Source of the DNA: Crenarchaeota archaeon 13_1_40CM_3_52_17
Lineage (GTDB): Archaea; Thermoproteota; Bathyarchaeia; 40CM-2-53-6
Reading direction: 5' to 3'
Length of the DNA: 35,209 nt
Assembly: GCA_001918745.1 (NCBI GenBank)
Contig: MNGN01000035.1
Span: 1 to 35,209 of the forward strand
The position numbers and the translations under genes are program-made. The notes beneath the pieces are model-generated. The model was not told where the DNA came from, searched no databases, and saw nothing but the letters and a program-made list of their open reading frames with translations. Below are positions 3,470 to 17,956 of the stretch, piece by piece. Numbering within the stretch: position 1 is the stretch's first letter; each line of letters begins with the position of its first letter.

Positions 3470-3480
3470 GGTTCTGTTAA
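3470..3480 (-). other. Shared terminal sequence of TnpB element (decayed copy)
   Basis: Read on the minus strand, this is TTAACAGAACC. The same 11 bases occur at 17953-17963 at the end of the intact TnpB gene, in both cases spanning the stop codon, and similarity between the copies stops just after it. It is probably the right end of the element, where a TnpB guide RNA scaffold would end. This is inference from two copies. Confidence 0.5.
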
Positions 3481-4684
3481 CTCTTTGTTAGTTGAGTTAG
3501 CTTCGGGGCATCGACTCCAGGGATTACCGCAGGCGTCGGGTTCCCCTTCACTGCTTCAACTGCTCCGCCTTGTGCCTCGATGATGGGAGGCCGGGAACGT
3601 GCGAACCTCACCCGTCCCTGCCGAGACAGGTTAACGGCTGCTACCATGTCCCGGTCCATTACTATTCGACATTTACCACACCAGAGCTTACGTCCCAACC
3701 TCCTGTCCGATTGGAGTCTCTCCCCGCATCTCGGACAAGACACACTAGAACCTCCGGTCTCACGCCTAGACAAACGAATGACTGGGAGTCCTATCCATCT
3801 GGCCTTATACTCTAATTGTCGCTGGGCCTCGCTGAAACTCCAGCTGTTCATTCTACCTCGATATTTTCTGTTTTGACCGTTTCCCTTCCGGTAGAGACAA
3901 CGTATGCCCTGACTGTTCTCCAGAACGATTGCTTGTCTTCGCTGGGCCGCCACTGCCACAATTGTCTTCGTGGCAGAGTGGAGGAGATGACTGGTCCTAG
4001 AAGTTCTACGCTCTCCATACTTCGACGTTATGCCCGTTCTTATCCTGGTATCCTCTCGTCTCAAAGAAGCGATCGCAGTGTAGTCTTGACGATTCTCACC
4101 GTCTCTGAGAGGTCGTGGTGACGAGTCTCTTGGTCGTTTCCAACCGTAAGATTACGAAGATTACGGTCCACGCCTACGGTAGACGCGCATTCTACTGTGA
4201 CAACGTCGCGGGCGATACAGAGGCTCAATCTCTTCAGGGTTAGGGTGAAAAGAACAAACTTTGACTCCTGGTTGAAAAATGACCTCTAACGTGTGCCTGG
4301 TTAAGGGTATGCTGAAACGTTTACCTCTCGATACCGGAATATGCAGGTATCCGTTCTCTATCTTGAACCCGTAGCAGGAGACAAGCTGTGGTTTGATCGT
4401 ATAGGTTCTTTTGTGGCGAACCCTCTCTTCAGAGACTTTTTTCTGGAAGCAAGTATGCCTGCTGCTCTGCTAATAGCGCAGAGCTTGTAACAACTGGGAG
4501 AGTCATAATGGGCAAGCTGATTATATGAGAGAAGTGAGAGTTTTCTCAGCGAAGACGCATCGTTCACTAGACCAATTCGGATGGAATCGTTGACCATCGC
4601 CCTGAACATCTTCAGTAATCCTAGAGCGGCTCGTGTTGGAGCGTAGTTCTGCCAGACAGATTTGACAGCCAAAAGGGTCAACAA
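3477..4684 (-). pseudogene. tnpB: TnpB (IS200/IS605 OrfB) pseudogene with three frameshifts
   Basis: Decayed RNA-guided nuclease gene of an IS200/IS605-type element. Four pieces in different frames line up in order with the intact TnpB at 16697-17956. 4684-4405 gives the helical N-terminal part (LLKMFRAMVNDS, SYNQLAHYDSPSCYKLCAIS). About 4405-4240 gives the piece with SCYGFKIENGYLHIP. About 4240-4070 carries the RuvC-I segment STVGVDRNLRNLTVG. 4064-3477 holds RuvC-II (AIVLENSQGIR), the zinc finger CPRC...CGKC and RuvC-III (DRDMVAAVN). The shifts fall near 4405, 4240 and 4068, the last next to an in-frame stop. All catalytic positions survive, so the decay is recent or partial. No TnpA transposase is nearby. 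Confidence 0.88.
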
Positions 4685-6052: not shown

Positions 6053-6820
6053 TTGAATTTTTCCTCGCGAGACAAGTGGCGAGCATGGCTAGCAAGGAAT
6101 CATCAAACTGCAAGAGAAATCTGGCTTCTCTACGATAAGAAACTCTCCGAAACACCACTAATTTCATACAGAGATTTCCTCGACCAAGCGGTTGAAGAGG
6201 CGATATGCTATGGCTGGATTGACAGTAGAGTCAAGCGAATCGGCCAAACAAGACTTGGTGTACGATTTACTCCGCGTAGGTCGAGAGCCAATTGGTCGAA
6301 GTACAACAAAGCGCGTGCGCTGAACCTAATTCGTGATGGTAAGATGAGAAAAGCTGGCATGGACGTTCTATGGACAGAATGGACGAACGAGAATGTGGAC
6401 AGAGACCAAAGTCATAGAAGAACGATCGCTGACTGCGTGGATGGAATCTTGGTGGAGAGGAAAAAGTTCCTCGTAGAAAAAAGGCGAGATGACGACGATG
6501 CGGATCCGGGATTGATAGAGATTCCCGGCGGTCACGTGGACCCCGGTGAGACCTTGGAGTATGCTTTGAAACGAGAGATGAAGGAAGAACTCGGAGTCGA
6601 CGTCGAGAAGGCTAAACTTGTACAGAAGAGTCTGGTCACAGCGACCAATGGCGAGAGACAGAGAATTCACTACTTCCACGTGGAGAAGTGGAATGGTAGA
6701 ATCCGGTCCACAGAGGCAGAGCGAGTGTATTGGGAATCTAAGATTTCCAATCTCAGCATTATCCCAGACAGAAGAGCCGTTCGGAAAATCCTGAGAGTTC
6801 AAGGCGACGATAGCGAATAG
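6053..6820 (+). CDS. YdeI/OmpD-associated-like domain fused to NUDIX hydrolase
   Basis: A 255-residue two-domain protein in a single open frame. Residues 5-105 match the YdeI/OmpD-associated family (often annotated bacteriocin-protection) through RAWLARNHQTAREIWLLYDKK, EEAICYGWIDSRVKRI, FTPRRSRANWSKYN and GKMRKAGM. Residues 120-250 are a NUDIX hydrolase. The Nudix box at 160-182 is complete: G160, E166, R174-E175, E178-E179 and G181 fit GX5EX7REUXEEXGU. NUDIX enzymes cleave a nucleoside diphosphate linked to another moiety; the substrate here is unknown. Start is TTG at 6053. I do not know this fusion as a standard architecture. A frameshift fusing two neighbouring genes is possible but there is no sign of one. 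Confidence 0.85.
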   Translation: MNFSSRDKWRAWLARNHQTAREIWLLYDKKLSETPLISYRDFLDQAVEEAICYGWIDSRVKRIGQTRLGVRFTPRRSRANWSKYNKARALNLIRDGKMRKAGMDVLWTEWTNENVDRDQSHRRTIADCVDGILVERKKFLVEKRRDDDDADPGLIEIPGGHVDPGETLEYALKREMKEELGVDVEKAKLVQKSLVTATNGERQRIHYFHVEKWNGRIRSTEAERVYWESKISNLSIIPDRRAVRKILRVQGDDSE

Positions 6821-6928: not shown

Positions 6929-7116
6929 GTGAACACCCATTTCGAGGCTCAGTTAGTTTATGAGGCCCGAGTCTTGAAAATTCTCTTTCCCAACGTTTCC
7001 AAGGAAGACAATGGCTAGAGGAGCTGCGATATCTGAAAAGTCAAGTCAGAGCCGAAATTCGGTACTACATCGATGCTCGCAAAGCTGAGAGATTCAAGCT
7101 CAGCCTTTTCGAGCTA
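6929..7116 (+). other. N-terminal coding region of the VTC-CYTH gene, split by a -1 frameshift
   Basis: The VTC-like gene has no ATG, GTG or TTG between an in-frame stop at 6961 and 7117, yet the same frame from 7018 encodes EELRYLKSQVRAEIRYYIDA, which carries the E-x-(R/K)-Y first strand expected of VTC domains. A GTG at 6929 in another frame encodes MNTHFEAQLVYEARVLKILF and runs into TAG at 7016-7018, exactly where the other frame becomes sensible. A one-base deletion near 7012-7016 (true, or an assembly error) would join them into one N-terminus. CTG initiation at 7024 is the alternative. Confidence 0.6.
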
Positions 7117-8319
7117 ATGAGCCTGAACAGTTTTCCCAACCCCGTCAACCAAACACTGTACTTCAACAATGAGGAGCACGAAGTCCCATTCACCTACTCG
7201 ATCAGAGGAAGGAGATACGAGCAAAAACCGTTCAAGGAACGGTTCAAACTCAAGCTGAGCGACAAATGGATTTTCGAGGTAAAGAACACCAGATCAGAAC
7301 ACGGCCGCTTCATCAGACACAAACGACGGAACGAGATGCTGCCTCTTCAAGAAATCTTGTCGAGGGTAAAGCGAATGAGCCGGCTCGGCCAAGTCGGGAT
7401 TCCACACAAACTGGGCCTCTATGCAGCCGCGAGCTATTCTAGGAATCACTTTCTGGAAAGTGATCAAGGAGCGCGGGTTACAATGGATGAAGATGTCCGG
7501 TATTTCACATTCGAGGGACTTGCAGGGACAATGCTAGGGGCCTCGAACCGAGCCATTGTTGAGCTAAAGATTCCGCCCGGCAGAACAAGTTCTCCATTGG
7601 TCAGAAAAATCCACGGTCTCCTCAGGAAAGAAAACGCGGAACAGGGCATTTCCAAGAAAGCCACGATCTTCAATCTCGTCGAAGACCGCGCTAGGAAATC
7701 GGGCGAAGCATACAAGGAACCGAGCCACAACACAGAGATCAAAGCAAAAGTTGCGCTTGACGCAGAAGACCAGGACATTTTCCCCAGGATAAGAAACGAT
7801 CTATCTGAAGGAAAAATCGAAGGGTTCAAACTCTCTGACTCTTACCCGAATGTCATGGAGACAGGTAAGCTATACCACTACGTTCAGGTACCCACGCATG
7901 AATATCTGAGATTCGAAACTAGTGGTCAAGCAAGGTCCGCGACGGTCAAGGAGAACTTTCAGGTCGTCCAAGATCCCTATCGACTGGGTAACGTGATAAA
8001 GAGGCGGGAAGTTGAGGAGCCTCTTCGGCAGGACATGTTGAAGATGCCTTACAAGATTCTCACGAGGAGGAGGAAGTACTTCATGGTTGAGCGGAACGGG
8101 GGAAACCGGGAGTACGCGGTGATGATGGATAGGAGCACGCATCGAGGCCACGAGCTGTACCAGTTGGAGGTGGAGGATGTTCTGAACTCGCCTTCTCCGA
8201 GAACTGAAACGCTGAGCATCAACGATGTGGCATCCATGGCGAACTATCTCATAGAAGAGTACTCACTGGAGCCCACGACCCTGACCAAGAACCAGTGGCT
8301 GATGAGCCTGCCGAACTAG
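7117..8319 (+). CDS. Tandem tunnel-fold protein: VTC-like polyphosphate polymerase domain plus CYTH domain
   Basis: At least 400 residues with two triphosphate-tunnel-fold modules. The first (to about residue 190) follows VTC polyphosphate polymerases: TLYFNN, the double-Arg strand IRGRRY (29-34), KWIFEVKNTR (50-59), GARVTMDEDVRYF (118-130), IVELKIPPG (147-155) and the closing GISKKATIFN. The second (about 205-375) is CYTH-like: TEIKAK (206-211) in place of ExExK, YLRFETSG, ATVKEN, VIKRREVEEPL, ILTRRRKYFMV and LYQLEVEDV. VTC domains make polyphosphate from nucleoside triphosphate; CYTH domains cleave or bind triphosphates. The first strand lies upstream of this start (see 6929-7116). It converges on CHAD 8 bases away. 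Polymerase activity is inferred. Confidence 0.72.
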   Translation: MSLNSFPNPVNQTLYFNNEEHEVPFTYSIRGRRYEQKPFKERFKLKLSDKWIFEVKNTRSEHGRFIRHKRRNEMLPLQEILSRVKRMSRLGQVGIPHKLGLYAAASYSRNHFLESDQGARVTMDEDVRYFTFEGLAGTMLGASNRAIVELKIPPGRTSSPLVRKIHGLLRKENAEQGISKKATIFNLVEDRARKSGEAYKEPSHNTEIKAKVALDAEDQDIFPRIRNDLSEGKIEGFKLSDSYPNVMETGKLYHYVQVPTHEYLRFETSGQARSATVKENFQVVQDPYRLGNVIKRREVEEPLRQDMLKMPYKILTRRRKYFMVERNGGNREYAVMMDRSTHRGHELYQLEVEDVLNSPSPRTETLSINDVASMANYLIEEYSLEPTTLTKNQWLMSLPN

Positions 8320-8326
8320 AACGATC

Positions 8327-9121
8327 TCAAGGCTTGCCAGCAAATCTAGAAATTGGATTCTCTCTCGAGGCCTCGACGAATTTTCGATAATTGTTGTTCC
8401 TACTCTCGGTTTCAGTGTTTAACGCCAATTGTATTTCCGAGGATTTGGTGAGTCCCCGAAGGTACGCGAGCATCACATCGTGGTCCCGTATCGCGCCAAG
8501 TAGATCTTGCCAAGAACGGAGCGTTACAAGCGGCTTCGGCGGCTTAGAAAATTCGCCCATTTCCAAAACATAACGGAGTTGCTTGCAATCTCTTCGGACG
8601 ATGTGTAATTCCTCTACCTTAGATTGGTCCTCTCTTACTAACGGCAGCTCGCTGGCAATCTTCGAGCTCAGTTTTCTCACAACCTTGTTGTATCTTTTCT
8701 CCAGTAATGAGTCGGAAAGGTCCGTCGTTTTTACGCGAAGTCCCGTATTTTTCTGAATAGACATTGCTAGTTCTTTCGCTTGCTCCAGATGGGACCTGCG
8801 CGATTTCCTCAGATCCTCTGTCAGTCGTTCGAATGTACGATTCTGCTTATACATTGACAATTTCGAGAGAATAATGTCTTGGTCTCTCACGCTAGCGTTT
8901 ACTTTCATCAACTTCTTGATACGAGACATGGCTTTCTGCACTTTGTTTTGGTTCCGTGTCGTCTTAGGAAGCAATGTGAAGGCGGCTTGCAGACGGCGAG
9001 TCGCGGTTCGAAGCCGGTGAACATTCTCAGCATTTGGATCTCGAAGGTAGGCCTTGACTCTCCGAGTCAGAGCTTTCACGAATTTGTCGTACTCGTTCTC
9101 GAAAGAGTCGCGAGTAATCAA
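8327..9121 (-). CDS. CHAD domain protein
   Basis: A 264-residue all-helical CHAD (conserved histidine alpha-helical domain) protein. Both internal repeats are visible: VHRLRTATRRLQAAF (H35) with ASVRDQDIIL in the first half, and LHIVRRDCKQLRYVLEM (H173) with LLGAIRDHDVMLAYL in the second. The basic helices line a groove that binds polyphosphate in characterised family members. It lies 48 bases downstream of the Ppx gene on the same strand and is the third gene of the SixA-Ppx-CHAD operon. In bacteria CHAD is often fused to CYTH; here the CYTH modules are in separate genes on either side. Domain call firm; polyphosphate targeting is inferred from the family and context. Confidence 0.9.
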   Translation of the reverse strand: MITRDSFENEYDKFVKALTRRVKAYLRDPNAENVHRLRTATRRLQAAFTLLPKTTRNQNKVQKAMSRIKKLMKVNASVRDQDIILSKLSMYKQNRTFERLTEDLRKSRRSHLEQAKELAMSIQKNTGLRVKTTDLSDSLLEKRYNKVVRKLSSKIASELPLVREDQSKVEELHIVRRDCKQLRYVLEMGEFSKPPKPLVTLRSWQDLLGAIRDHDVMLAYLRGLTKSSEIQLALNTETESRNNNYRKFVEASRENPISRFAGKP

Positions 9122-9169
9122 GGGAAGGCTGGGTTCGAGATGTGAGGCTACTTAGGTTTTCTTCGGTGG

Positions 9170-10633
9170 CTACATGGCAAGTTGGAGATTGAAGGCGCCT
9201 TCCAGGTCTTCGAGGTCTCTAAGAACATCTTTCATAAGCACTTTTGGAATAGGTTGCTTGCCTTGGGCTATGTGAAGCCGAGGGATTCCACGCTCAGAAC
9301 TAATGGACAGATGGATGTCCGTCTTCTGTTGGAGCTGAGCAAGCTGTATCAGGACCGAAATTTTCTTCACCATCTCCATGCTCTTCTTGTCGAGGAGCCG
9401 CTTGTAGCTCGCCTGAGCCCAATCTGTCCGCCTCATTCCCATCGCTCTTGCAACAGACAAGGCCATGATGAGCTGGTCCTGGTGTAACAGTACGCTATCA
9501 GCCTCCAAAACAATGTAGAACAAGGTCTCCGGATTGTAGATAGGAAGGTCGGGCAAGACGTGATCGAGAGCCTCTGAAAGGATCGCATACTCCCTCTTGG
9601 TCAGGTTTCTATGCGATAACAGCGACTTCGCCAACTTCTCCGGGGCGGAAGCTTTCGCGCGAATCAGCGTCCCTTCGCGCATCAGAACCCTGTTTACGAG
9701 TCCCTGACGGTACGAGCTTGGGCTCTCGAGGAAAGCGGAGAGCACTCCATCTCTAAGACCATGCGTGCTAACGATGAGTTTGCGAAACCCAATCTTCTCC
9801 ATCAGCAGGTGAACTACTAGAGACCCGGCTATGATTGATTGACTTCTCTCTTGGCCAATCGCAGGGTTCTTTCTTAAAGTCCTAAGGCCCATTCTGCGCA
9901 GAGAGCGGTGTACCGATTCCACGGCGTTGTTCTTCATCGAATAATTGTGTAGCTTGTTTAGAGGATACTGTCTTCGCATCTGGTCATACCGAGCGATCGC
10001 GCGGACTGAGCCTCCGACACCCACCAGGTCAAGGTTCTTTGAAGCTGGAAGATGTTTTTTCTCCGGCAGAAGTTCGAGAATCCGTTTTCTCATCCGGGCA
10101 TAGTTTTTCTTTGTGTAAGATCCGCCTGGCTTGGCGTAAAGGTCAGTTAGCCTCAGTCCTCCGAGAGGAACTGAGAGGATTTTTCTGATCGTTGGCTCCG
10201 AGTAGGTGACCATTTCCAAGCTTCCGCCTCCAAGATCGAAGAACAAGCCAGCATGAACGCTAGTGGCGCTCTTGGCTCCTTCGAACGCGTATACTGCCTC
10301 TTCCTTTTCGGATAGTACTTTGAACCTAAATCCTGTCTCTTGATACGCTGCTTTGAGAAATTCTTCTCTGTTCCCTGCTTCCCTAACCGCGCTGGTCGCG
10401 ACGGGGAGGACATGGTCTGACTCCTCGAGGTCTACAATTGCGCGGAACTGTTTCAGGGCCTTGAGAGTTCGTCGGATGGGTTTGTCTCCAAGGAAGCCTG
10501 TCTGATCGAGCCCTTCTCCAACTTTCGCGAGGACTGATTGCTGTCCATACGCGATGAATGACTTGTCCCGCCTGACTTCGTAGTTCACCAGTTTTAGCGA
10601 GTTGTAGCCTAGGTCTATCACGGAGACTTTCAA
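9170..10633 (-). CDS. ppx: Ppx/GppA family exopolyphosphatase
   Basis: A 487-residue protein of the ASKHA fold. Residues 1-300 are the Ppx/GppA catalytic part: phosphate-1 loop VIDLGYNSLKL (5-15), ATSAVREAGN (79-88), the general base region LSEKEEAVYAF (E111/E112) and phosphate-2 loop FFDLGGGSLEMV (131-142). The C-terminal 180 residues are helical with HRNLTKREYAIL and a degenerate HD-like region, as in long Ppx proteins. The enzyme removes terminal phosphate from polyphosphate or the 5' phosphate of pppGpp; its neighbours favour polyphosphate. Middle gene of SixA-Ppx-CHAD, 69 bases from SixA and 48 from CHAD. Start ATG at 10633. Confidence 0.92.
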   Translation of the reverse strand: MKVSVIDLGYNSLKLVNYEVRRDKSFIAYGQQSVLAKVGEGLDQTGFLGDKPIRRTLKALKQFRAIVDLEESDHVLPVATSAVREAGNREEFLKAAYQETGFRFKVLSEKEEAVYAFEGAKSATSVHAGLFFDLGGGSLEMVTYSEPTIRKILSVPLGGLRLTDLYAKPGGSYTKKNYARMRKRILELLPEKKHLPASKNLDLVGVGGSVRAIARYDQMRRQYPLNKLHNYSMKNNAVESVHRSLRRMGLRTLRKNPAIGQERSQSIIAGSLVVHLLMEKIGFRKLIVSTHGLRDGVLSAFLESPSSYRQGLVNRVLMREGTLIRAKASAPEKLAKSLLSHRNLTKREYAILSEALDHVLPDLPIYNPETLFYIVLEADSVLLHQDQLIMALSVARAMGMRRTDWAQASYKRLLDKKSMEMVKKISVLIQLAQLQQKTDIHLSISSERGIPRLHIAQGKQPIPKVLMKDVLRDLEDLEGAFNLQLAM

Positions 10634-10702
10634 ACTTGGCTATGGGCCGCCCGTCGTTTCCGTTTTACTTCGGCGGAGTCATTGTGATTCGTTTTGGGTT
10701 TA

Positions 10703-11320
10703 TCAAGAAATCTTAGTGATGATTTTCGGTGTTAGAAGCCAGCGGAGTTCGCCGGAGACTCTAGGGGTAAATGATGTTATTCGGACTTTTCCGACGCCTC
10801 CTTTTTTCAGAACAATTTTAGCACTCGTGGTCCCGATGATCTCTCCAATCATCGAGGTCAGGTAAGGCTCGTGTCCCACAAGGATTGGTCTGGAGTCTTG
10901 TTCGAGTCTTGCCAGTTTGCGATAGAGTGCTGCCTTACTTCCATCTGGTTTCAATTCGTCCCATTCTTCCAATGTTGGGACGTTGAGGACCCTGGCCGCA
11001 ATTTCAGCGGTCTCTTGAGCTCTTCTCAAAGGACTTGTATAGATTCGATCGGTTTGCAATCCGATTGCCTTCAATGACCTGGCAATTTTCTGCATCGCGG
11101 CCCGGCCTTCCGGTGTTAGGGGTCGTTCGGAATCTTTCTCTGCAACTGTCATTCGGTTTCCGGCTTCTCCATGCCTTAGTATGAAAATGTCGATGCTTGT
11201 CGAAGTCGCTGTCTTTGATGGGATCCGAACGGATGTTGGCGAAGTTGCCATCTTAGTCTCGACTTCTTTGTCGTCCGAGAAAGCACGTCGTTGTCTCCTT
11301 CCTCTCTTGGGCTCTGTCAA
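10703..11320 (-). CDS. sixA: SixA-like phosphohistidine phosphatase (histidine phosphatase superfamily)
   Basis: A 205-residue protein with the phosphoglycerate-mutase-like fold. The catalytic RHG motif is FILRHGEAGN with H50, Arg at TSPLRRAQETAE (95-106) and the second His in PILVGHEPYLTS (H150). Size and motif spacing fit SixA-type phosphohistidine phosphatases. It heads the minus-strand operon with Ppx and CHAD; association of SixA with CHAD genes is known in bacteria. A TATA-like CTTTATC lies at about 11352-11358, about 30 bases before the TTG at 11320, which supports this start. ATG at 11251 is the alternative and would remove a 23-residue basic tail. Confidence 0.85.
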   Translation of the reverse strand: MTEPKRGRRQRRAFSDDKEVETKMATSPTSVRIPSKTATSTSIDIFILRHGEAGNRMTVAEKDSERPLTPEGRAAMQKIARSLKAIGLQTDRIYTSPLRRAQETAEIAARVLNVPTLEEWDELKPDGSKAALYRKLARLEQDSRPILVGHEPYLTSMIGEIIGTTSAKIVLKKGGVGKVRITSFTPRVSGELRWLLTPKIITKIS

Positions 11321-11386
11321 TTGTCCCTATTGCAGGTTTGGGTGAGTCAGATAAAGTTCAGTAACCACACTTTCTCCGTTCAAACC

Positions 11387-12193
11387 ATGAGTTGGACTCG
11401 GATGGTCAAGCTACCTCAAGCTCTCGGTTTCGGCCGCGAGATCGAATCGATCCTCCTCATACTCTCAGATCATCCTGAGGAAATTGTCAGAAAGATTGCT
11501 GAAAAGAAAAGCGTCGGAGATTATCGATTGGTTGGTGAGAAGACGAAGTTTCTTGCCGACACATACTTCGACACGCCCAACCACTTTCTCTCGCACCGCA
11601 AGTTGAATCTGAGAATACGGACGGACAACCAGGATCGCTGGATTACCATGAAGACCCATCCTAGACGAACTCTCTGGGGTGGAATGGTCCGATCTGAGAT
11701 GGAAGTTCCCTGGTCACATGGAACTATTGAAAAAGTGGTTTCCGAGCTGAAAATCCCGCATCAACCTTCTAGTCCTACAGGCCAGATAACTCCTTCAGAC
11801 CCGATTGAACTATTGAAGACCAAAGGCCTCGTTCCCATTCAACATCGCGAGACACAACGGCAGGTACGTGATGTTACCCTCGGCCATGAGGGTTCTTCCG
11901 TCCTAGCAGAATTAGACATTGATTCAGTGCTTTACGACTTCGACGATCAAAAGATACGACTCTTCGAGGTGGAAGTAGAGAGTAAGTCAGAGAGAGGCCA
12001 GAACGTAGTCAAGAGTGTCACAAAGAGCCTGAAGGGAGAGTACGGCCCTATCTTACGAAGCTGGCGTCACGGAAAACTCGCGACTGGGACCGGGATCGCC
12101 AAGCTATTGAAATCGGGAGAGCTCAAACCTCTGATCGATGCTGAAAACCGGCTTCTCCCAGCTGCCTATGACAGGCTCAACCGAATACTCTGA
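11387..12193 (+). CDS. CYTH domain protein (triphosphate tunnel enzyme family)
   Basis: About 268 residues from the ATG at 11387. CYTH features are the N-terminal strand REIESILLIL (E18, E20; the usual ExExK has Ile in the Lys position), ADTYFDTPNHFL, NLRIRTDNQDRWITMKTH, RSEMEVPW, VLAELDIDSVLYDF and LFEVEVESK near residues 190-200. The last 65 residues are helical and extra to the domain. CYTH enzymes hydrolyse or bind triphosphate, ATP or thiamine triphosphate. The gene diverges from the SixA-Ppx-CHAD operon with a 66-base gap, so both could share control. The Lys to Ile change may reduce or alter activity. Domain call firm; substrate unknown. Confidence 0.85.
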   Translation: MSWTRMVKLPQALGFGREIESILLILSDHPEEIVRKIAEKKSVGDYRLVGEKTKFLADTYFDTPNHFLSHRKLNLRIRTDNQDRWITMKTHPRRTLWGGMVRSEMEVPWSHGTIEKVVSELKIPHQPSSPTGQITPSDPIELLKTKGLVPIQHRETQRQVRDVTLGHEGSSVLAELDIDSVLYDFDDQKIRLFEVEVESKSERGQNVVKSVTKSLKGEYGPILRSWRHGKLATGTGIAKLLKSGELKPLIDAENRLLPAAYDRLNRIL

Positions 12194-16696: not shown

Positions 16697-17956
16697 GTGG
16701 CGGTTATGTTCGCCATCCTCTCTGTGATATTTGGCAAGAGAGCCCGTTTTCCACGTCTGGCGTGCCCTGTGCTGGCGGTGAAGACAGTCAGACAGAAACA
16801 TCAGGCTTCAAACGAACTTCTATCCCTCTTGGACAAGTTCAGACGCATGGTGAACGAATGCGTGGCTTTTGGAATAGAAGAGAATATTTCAAGTCTTATG
16901 ACTCTCTCTTTGAGATCGTATAATAGACTCAGTCCCAGTACGCTCAGCTACTACAGACTCGGGGCGATCAGCAGCGCCACCGGAATACTCCGCAACTATC
17001 GAAAGGCCAAGAGAAAGAACCCTCGTACAAGCGTTCCATACGCTGGGAAGCTTATGCTCACCACATGTTACGGGTTCAAAATCCAAAGTGATCTTCTCAG
17101 ACTGCCTCTCAACCCACGACAATACATCTATGTTAAGCTGAACAATCACACTCTCCAAGTCCTCTCCGGGCATGACGTTCGCTCGGTCACGCTGACCCCG
17201 CATTCGCTCAGCATAAGCTACTCAAAAGAAACGGTCGACATCAAACCGGAGGGATACGTTGGGATAGACCGTAATCTGGACAATGTGACGGTCGCATCAA
17301 CAGACCAGATCGTTCGAAGATTCGACATGTTAAAAGCGACCAGGATCAAATCCGATTATCGCTTTGTCAACAGCCATTTCAAGAGAAACGATTCCCGAAT
17401 AAGAAAACGAGTCCATGGCAAGTATGGAAGGAAGCAGAGGAACCGTGTCCAGCCACTAATCCACAACGTGTCCAGGAGAGTAGTTGACGAGGCTAAGAAT
17501 AGAAGATATGGTATAGTCATGGAAAGACTAACTGGGATGAGAAGGCTCTATCGAAAGGGTAACGGACAATCCAGAAGCTATCGAGCGAGAATGAACAGCT
17601 GGAGCTATGGAGAACTGCAGCGACAGATAGAGTATAAGGCGCGATGGGAAGGAGTGAGGGTAATCTACGTTCCTGCTAGGAACACGTCCAAGCGGTGCTC
17701 GGTATGCGGGTACAAGACCCTAGAGAGCACCCACCGAAGACTGTGGTGTCCACACTGTGGAGCCATCATGGACAGGGACGAGAACGCAGCTAGAAACATA
17801 GCTGCGAGAGGGCTGAGGTTCAGCCCCAACGGGCCTCTAGGTGAAGCAATGGTAGAGGAACGGGAACCGGAGAACGCGACCCTAATCCTCAAAGTCGATG
17901 GAGGCAAGTTAAGTCAACGACCCACAACTACGACAATTCGTTCAATGAAGACTTAA
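16697..17956 (+). CDS. tnpB: TnpB, RNA-guided nuclease of an IS200/IS605-type element (intact)
   Basis: A 419-residue OrfB/TnpB with all catalytic parts: RuvC-I D191 in GYVGIDRNLDNVTV, RuvC-II E276 in GIVMERLTGMRRL, the zinc finger C334/C337 (CSVCGY) and C351/C354 (CPHCGA), and RuvC-III D361 in DRDENAARNIA. TnpB is a DNA nuclease guided by an omega-RNA made from the element's 3' end. It has no TnpA partner, so it is an orphan OrfB insertion. GTG at 16697 is the longest start; GTG at 16769 or 16778 would match the usual N-terminus better and the related copy at 3477-4684. It sits between an EamA gene and a GNAT gene. Confidence 0.93.
   Translation: MAVMFAILSVIFGKRARFPRLACPVLAVKTVRQKHQASNELLSLLDKFRRMVNECVAFGIEENISSLMTLSLRSYNRLSPSTLSYYRLGAISSATGILRNYRKAKRKNPRTSVPYAGKLMLTTCYGFKIQSDLLRLPLNPRQYIYVKLNNHTLQVLSGHDVRSVTLTPHSLSISYSKETVDIKPEGYVGIDRNLDNVTVASTDQIVRRFDMLKATRIKSDYRFVNSHFKRNDSRIRKRVHGKYGRKQRNRVQPLIHNVSRRVVDEAKNRRYGIVMERLTGMRRLYRKGNGQSRSYRARMNSWSYGELQRQIEYKARWEGVRVIYVPARNTSKRCSVCGYKTLESTHRRLWCPHCGAIMDRDENAARNIAARGLRFSPNGPLGEAMVEEREPENATLILKVDGGKLSQRPTTTTIRSMKT

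Follow-up and report, generated by a model that had tools for sequence, protein, structure and literature searches.

The locus described here raises the question of how polyphosphate is made in those crenarchaea in which no polyphosphate kinase is found, the enzyme responsible having been stated to be not known for Crenarchaeota (PMC6864096, PMC7831078, PMC10892726). It lies on contig MNGN01000035.1 of Crenarchaeota archaeon 13_1_40CM_3_52_17, a member of the Bathyarchaeia. All 35,209 nt of this contig were analysed (the window), which is contig 31 of 66 in a 1.78-Mb genome that is 80% complete. Between nt 7033 and 12193 the window carries five genes, which Pfam and NCBIfam assign to the VTC-like, CHAD, Ppx, SixA and CYTH families. 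We interpret them, with a probability of about 60%, as a Bathyarchaeal polyphosphate module, with a soluble VTC-type enzyme taking the place of polyphosphate kinase 1 (PPK1). In such a module the VTC-like protein would use a triphosphate-tunnel domain to make polyphosphate from ATP, CHAD would bind the polymer, Ppx would release phosphate from it, and the CYTH protein would cleave short chains or tripolyphosphate; PPK2, encoded elsewhere in the genome, would recharge nucleotides using polyphosphate, and SixA would act as a phosphatase within the conserved framework. We infer all of these activities, and in particular that the VTC-like protein is a polymerase and not a hydrolase; polymerase activity is the likely prediction for it.

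The start of the VTC-like gene was determined from an alignment of 12 loci, the window included (L and G numbers denote loci and genomes). All share a start at a conserved NTG codon, at nt 7033 in the window and five codons before the motif RAEIRYY. The codon in the window (nt 7033–7035) is CTG; nine other close relatives have CTG (5), TTG (3) or GTG (1) and none has ATG, and of the distant loci L024 has TTG and L023 an ATG one codon earlier. The sequence GAGGAG is found upstream of the start in 9 of 10 close-clade loci, the exception being L021. An ATG at nt 7117 is the mechanical start of the open reading frame, and beginning there removes the first tunnel strand; the score against the Pfam VTC model is then 22.6 bits, below the cut-off of 23, compared with 27.2 bits (E = 3.6e-6) from nt 7033. 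A preliminary description of this DNA had placed five polyphosphate- or triphosphate-family genes at nt 6929–12193. The families are present as described, and the left boundary has to be moved: the GTG at nt 6929 is in another frame and meets a stop after 29 codons. A frameshifted gene beginning at nt 6929 was rejected, since the reading frame is accounted for by the NTG start shared across the family. In one close relative (G006, L022:2963-4148) the VTC frame is broken, by either decay or an assembly error.

The VTC-like protein consists of an N-terminal VTC/TTM tunnel domain (residues ~1–210) and a C-terminal domain (~227–428). In the family alignment (A1), the VTC profile matches 9 of 11 members at E ≤ 10, the best at 3.7e-8. 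Modelling with AlphaFold2 gave a fair N-terminal domain, 17 of the first 20 ten-residue blocks having a mean predicted local distance difference test score (pLDDT) above 60; for the whole protein the pLDDT was 53.4 and the predicted template modelling (TM) score 0.47. Foldseek returned Vtc4, Vtc2 or VTC-complex chains at ranks 1–7, with 3g3r as the best match (E = 2.2e-8; TM-score 0.34 by query and 0.49 by target, root-mean-square deviation 6.4). YgiF and other tunnel enzymes follow the VTC chains, and Mediator head subunits, which have the same fold, appear lower down. Canonical archaeal VTC proteins match Vtc4 by sequence at 1.6e-5, and hhalign aligned the present family with them over 165 columns at E = 0.0015, with a probability of just 17%. 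Compared with yeast Vtc4, the window protein shares the tunnel fold and several tunnel residues but is only 14% identical (Foldseek), lacks an SPX match (Pfam) and any hydrophobic segment (hydropathy over 19 residues reaches at most 0.75), and carries the extra C-terminal domain.

Tunnel residues were compared using the Vtc4 numbering that we take to be R264, R266, K281, K294, R361, R373, E426, S457 and K458, the spacing of which agrees with the chain pieces. Five of 11 positions queried in the first Vtc4 piece align to the same residue (E279, K281, R361, R373 and D377), as do E426 and K428 in the second. Their counterparts in the window protein (E82, K84, R137, R148, D152, E177 and K179, respectively) are invariant in all 11 rows of A1. 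Elsewhere the automatic alignment puts K72 at R264, leaves gaps at R266, K294 and R296, and gives mismatches at K300, R371, S457 and K458. By eye only, R58/R60 may be equivalent to R264/R266, R95 to K294 and S207/K208 to S457/K458; K72 and K74 vary within the family and R58 and R60 do not. A hypergeometric test on 16 picked residues, all of them invariant (p = 2.8e-8), was not relied on, being post hoc: invariance was itself part of the reason for choosing R58/R60.

The VTC-like protein was detected in 12 of 61 genomes searched (own included), all of them among the 18 of the genus, and in none of 43 other genomes at E ≤ 0.001. A family profile run against 300 genomes of the phylum found only the source genome. 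The restriction to the genus therefore holds for the phylum sample only, bacteria and other phyla lying outside the profile search. A tblastn search of plasmids gave no match, and 74 pattern matches on viral contigs included no relative of the protein. Scanning contigs with two short exact patterns, which detects close relatives only, returned 10 loci, eight labelled Candidatus Bathyarchaeota, one Crenarchaeota and one "bacterium"; the depth-labelled close relatives presumably come from soil.

In all 12 VTC-bearing genomes the VTC-like gene adjoins CHAD. The order VTC-CHAD-Ppx-SixA-CYTH is found in 8 of 11 relatives fetched, the one with the broken VTC frame (L022) among them. The contigs of L020 and L024 end after VTC-CHAD, and L023 reads SixA-Ppx-CHAD-VTC with no CYTH there. 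In the distant genome G002 (57% identity) SixA, Ppx, CHAD and VTC lie together on an 8-kb contig, and in G012 the group is split, with SixA, Ppx and the start of CHAD on L064, where the contig ends inside CHAD, and the rest of a CHAD gene plus VTC on L024, an arrangement that fits the same gene order. Matches to CYTH lie on other contigs in G009, G012 and G016, which makes CYTH a partner that joined the module late or is only loosely tied to it. The comparison with relatives that the preliminary description called for therefore upholds VTC-CHAD-Ppx-SixA as a conserved set and leaves out CYTH, which is not beside SixA in two distant members.

PPK1 (PF02503) was not found in any of the 18 genomes of the genus (52–95% complete), while 7 of 14 controls were positive. 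PPK2 (PF03976) occurs in 11 of the 18, comprising 11 of the 12 with VTC and none of the six without (Fisher p = 3.8e-4, uncorrected for descent). In the source genome the PPK2 gene, whose product fits TIGR03709, lies on a different contig from the module, and the self-contained unit envisaged earlier is not borne out; the accompanying proposal, a VTC-type enzyme instead of PPK, fits the comparative data for PPK1. Ppx is present in 14 of the 18 genomes and CHAD in 15; a class sample of 151 genomes includes 133 from outside the genus, of which 11 have CHAD. No match for VTC, PPK2, Ppx or CHAD was detected in G001, G003 and G008 (77–80% complete). In a tree built from the RpoB sequences of 17 genomes (none was obtained from G001), the distribution of VTC requires two changes, and G012, with VTC and PPK2, falls in a clade with G002 and with G003 and G008, the last two having neither. 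G016 has no Ppx match and neither a SixA nor a Tmk match at its CHAD locus (L065:5329-5967), where CHAD is shortened at the N-terminus (open frame of 235 residues, of which the first usual start leaves 165). Module decay is possible there; a broken CHAD gene was rejected, the frame being open over all 235 residues.

Outside the genus, CHAD adjoins PPK1 in all 11 CHAD-bearing Bathyarchaeia of the class sample. Like the window, these loci place CHAD beside a polyphosphate synthase gene, and of three read widely, all have CYTH and two (L068 and L069) have Ppx at the PPK1-CHAD locus; in L070 the next stretch is PPK2-like to the contig end. They differ in having PPK1, and the SixA gene of the window is unmatched in the three loci. 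Their CHAD proteins, of 770–782 residues, directly follow PPK1. The two that were scanned with Pfam (L068:7627-9948, L070:473-2818) are fusions in which CHAD is joined by a Ppx domain III/HD region and a calcineurin-type phosphoesterase. Canonical single-domain VTC proteins (PF09359) are encoded in 11 of 398 genomes of the phylum (L073–L083) and belong to the same superfamily as the window protein, but with open frames of 209–307 residues and 62–134 bits against VTC, compared with 428 residues and 27 bits.

A third arrangement is seen in two VTC-less members of the genus. In G011 (L061) the series runs SixA, Ppx, two thymidylate-kinase-like (Tmk-like) genes and then CHAD, and G009 has the same series split over L062 and L063. 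The Tmk-like genes (L061:4592-6123, L062:1-1127) are adjacent and lie between Ppx and CHAD, with the P-loops GSGKST in one and GSGRST in the other at L061. The pair was found in only 2 of 18 genus genomes, all other matches being 26–40% identical; the window has no Tmk-like match at E ≤ 1e-6, and the source genome has a single match, 29% identical, on another contig. Since the pair lies between Ppx and CHAD and VTC lies beyond CHAD, a VTC gene at the site of the pair was rejected; genes are exchanged, but not at a single position. SixA, PPX, dTMP kinase and CHAD are named together for biomining archaea (Sulfolobales) in a figure legend, which is taken here as a statement on gene content and not on gene order (PMC10892726, Figure 2). 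Common to that cluster and the window is the grouping of SixA, Ppx and CHAD in archaea for which no PPK is known; the window differs in that it has no Tmk pair, VTC-like lies beyond CHAD on the opposite strand, and CYTH adjoins SixA. SixA, Ppx and CHAD are thus a known archaeal polyphosphate neighbourhood, which in this genus is joined by the VTC-like gene. The remark in the preliminary description that no described archaeal system of this composition was known to it holds for VTC, no archaeal VTC-CHAD-Ppx module appearing among the matches listed for the open-licence literature (subscription papers and preprints were outside its scope), but SixA, PPX and CHAD had already been placed together in biomining archaea. 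The VTC-like gene has joined this neighbourhood, no PPK1 was found and PPK2 accompanies it; supply of the polymer by VTC is the simplest account.

Several observations count against VTC as the replacement for PPK1. The sequence similarity is weak (27 bits): two of the 11 members of A1 gave no reported VTC match, a six-frame scan of the source genome with PF09359 found nothing at E ≤ 0.001, and a PDB search with the full family profile did not find Vtc4, its one match (E = 0.53) being irrelevant. The tunnel residues, on which the earlier VTC assignment was to be judged, were recovered in part, with K281, R361, R373 and E426 aligned and R264, R266, K294, S457 and K458 unmatched in the automatic alignment. 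G235, G391 and G393 have canonical VTC as well as PPK1-CHAD, so the presence of a VTC domain does not have to mean that PPK1 is replaced; likewise, Ppx and CHAD occur without VTC in G009 and G011 and therefore do not need it. The correlation of VTC with PPK2 is not independent of descent and amounts to about two independent contrasts, and G002 (75% complete) has VTC with no PPK2 match. Polymerase activity of a prokaryotic VTC protein is not reported in the open-licence literature among the matches listed. Finally, the window protein retains one residue of the acidic patch described below, E8, as do all 10 canonical archaeal VTC proteins aligned.

This last residue is also consistent with the most serious alternative, which is nevertheless unlikely: that the VTC-like protein is a tunnel hydrolase (a tripolyphosphatase or polyphosphatase) and polyphosphate comes from PPK2 or an unknown enzyme. 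Many tunnel enzymes are hydrolases or cyclases, and AtTTM3 and many others carry an acidic patch (Glu-2, -4, -90 and -171) where Vtc4 has four basic residues (PMC4641920). In the window protein these positions, placed by eye, are R6, E8, R95/K97 and K179, so that three of the four are basic. PPK2 has been named as a polyphosphate-making enzyme (PMC6864096, PMC6537752), and its presence in nearly all VTC-bearing genomes, with the fit of the source genome's own copy to TIGR03709, would suit such a source; G002, with VTC and no PPK2 match, would not. Foldseek places the VTC chains above YgiF and other hydrolases, and the module already has Ppx and a CYTH protein that by eye is of the hydrolase type. 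In the latter, E16, E18, E102, E104, E192 and E194 were placed by eye at the acidic patch and are invariant in the seven rows aligned; the Pfam match starts after E16/E18, where the Lys of the ExExK motif is Ile. The contrast at this patch is suggestive of a VTC of the polymerase type next to a CYTH of the hydrolase type.

The C-terminal half had been described as a CYTH domain following the VTC-like one. Pfam and Foldseek bear out the N-terminal VTC assignment, while the CYTH half is unsupported by profile or structure tests. No CYTH profile match was found in this half (~227–428) in any of the 11 family members at E ≤ 10, and no PDB match at E ≤ 10. Alignment with Bathyarchaeal CYTH by hhalign gave E = 0.33 (positive control 7.4e-12), in a weak test where canonical VTC versus CYTH gives 0.1, and alignment with the CYTH family of the window gave 0.45. 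The structure model of this half is unusable (mean pLDDT 38.5), and comparison of the two halves of the protein by hhalign gave no indication of internal duplication (E = 0.34). The CYTH-likeness of the C-terminal half is a motif resemblance by eye only. Such a large unexplained domain could be an effector, with the whole protein serving as a non-catalytic sensor or scaffold for polyphosphate or triphosphate. Vtc2, a tunnel homologue among the Foldseek matches, is not known to be catalytic. That reading is quite improbable for the window protein, in which the residues aligned with Vtc4 K281, R361, R373 and E426 are invariant throughout A1. It is scarcely credible that the genes have no functional link and stand together merely through close kinship of the genomes, since, although the nine close relatives fetched also keep flanking genes with no evident polyphosphate role (NUDIX in 9, an Fe-S assembly gene in 8), the four core genes are together in G002 on a contig with no NUDIX, CYTH or Fe-S gene, VTC, PPK2, Ppx and CHAD are without a match as a group in G001, G003 and G008, and G016 combines a shortened CHAD with no Ppx match and no SixA at that locus.

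Table 1. Genes of the predicted polyphosphate module and its NUDIX flank (coordinates in nt of the window).
Feature	Coordinates	Strand	Basis and prediction
NUDIX-domain gene	6053..6820	+	Pfam NUDIX 5.3e-15; flank; synteny
VTC-like protein, 428 aa	7033..8319	+	Conserved NTG start; Pfam VTC; AlphaFold2/Foldseek; family alignment A1; predicted polyphosphate polymerase
CHAD-domain protein, 264 aa	8327..9121	-	Pfam CHAD 3.7e-20; 6qv7 match; predicted polyphosphate binder
Ppx/GppA exopolyphosphatase, 487 aa	9170..10633	-	Pfam 1.1e-42; TIGR03706 2.2e-73 (below cut-off); motifs by eye
SixA-like histidine phosphatase, 205 aa	10703..11320	-	TIGR00249 5.3e-26; RHGEAG and GHEPYL motifs by eye
CYTH/TTM protein, 268 aa from inferred start	11387..12193	+	Pfam CYTH 5.7e-16; hhalign with Bathyarchaeal CYTH 7.4e-12; predicted hydrolase-type triphosphatase or polyphosphatase

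The features of the locus are listed in Table 1. VTC and CHAD are convergent, with 7 bases separating them. SixA, Ppx and CHAD form a minus-strand series spaced by 69 and 48 bases, and CYTH is oriented divergently from SixA; the locus is therefore at least three transcription units and not one operon. All five proteins are soluble-looking by hydropathy, with basic isoelectric points of 9.4–10.3 (no proteome comparison). The CHAD family profile finds a CHAD domain of solved structure (6qv7; 2e-9, positions 169–223), and polyphosphate binding has been described for CHAD domains, one of them archaeal (PMC6537752). The two distant VTC-bearing genomes each have an extra CHAD gene on another contig (L066:5052-5828 in G012, L067:6185-6968 in G002), about 38% identical to that of the window and without other module-gene matches on those contigs. 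Ppx carries Ppx-type motifs by eye, and its score against TIGR03706 (247 bits) is under the model cut-off of 307; SixA exceeds its own (91.3 compared with 74.5 bits). The CYTH reading frame opens at nt 11291 and is kept across relatives just from residue ~31–36, which points to the ATG at nt 11387 as the probable start; a weak match of its product to YgiF (5a60) has E = 0.056. The NUDIX gene, a flank kept in the close clade and not on the L023 contig, is probably outside the module core. Elsewhere in the window, a TnpB-like gene (nt 16697–17956, plus strand) has a Cas12f1-like TNB domain (2.3e-24), which is also found in a shorter open reading frame (nt 3477–4064, minus strand; 1.6e-14).

For polyphosphate synthesis in crenarchaea without PPK, the VTC-like protein offers a specific and expressible candidate with a supporting context, and relatives contrast in the gene kept next to CHAD, which is PPK1 in some, VTC-like in others and a Tmk-like pair in yet others. 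A bolder version, that PPK1, VTC and Tmk-like genes alternate beside CHAD/Ppx and that the soluble two-domain VTC-type polymerase fills the role of the Tmk-like kinases of VTC-less relatives and Sulfolobales, is a long shot; if true, the polyphosphate kinase missing from crenarchaea would be the Tmk-like pair itself, which may in any case be a lead to that kinase, and one archaeal phylum would have three unrelated synthases. The VTC-like family alone would not answer the question for Sulfolobales, because its profile found only the source genome in the phylum sample. VTC has been described as a membrane complex of eukaryotes (PMC4641920, PMC7332688), and if the VTC-like protein does make polyphosphate, the VTC mechanism would be extended from that complex to a soluble archaeal enzyme.

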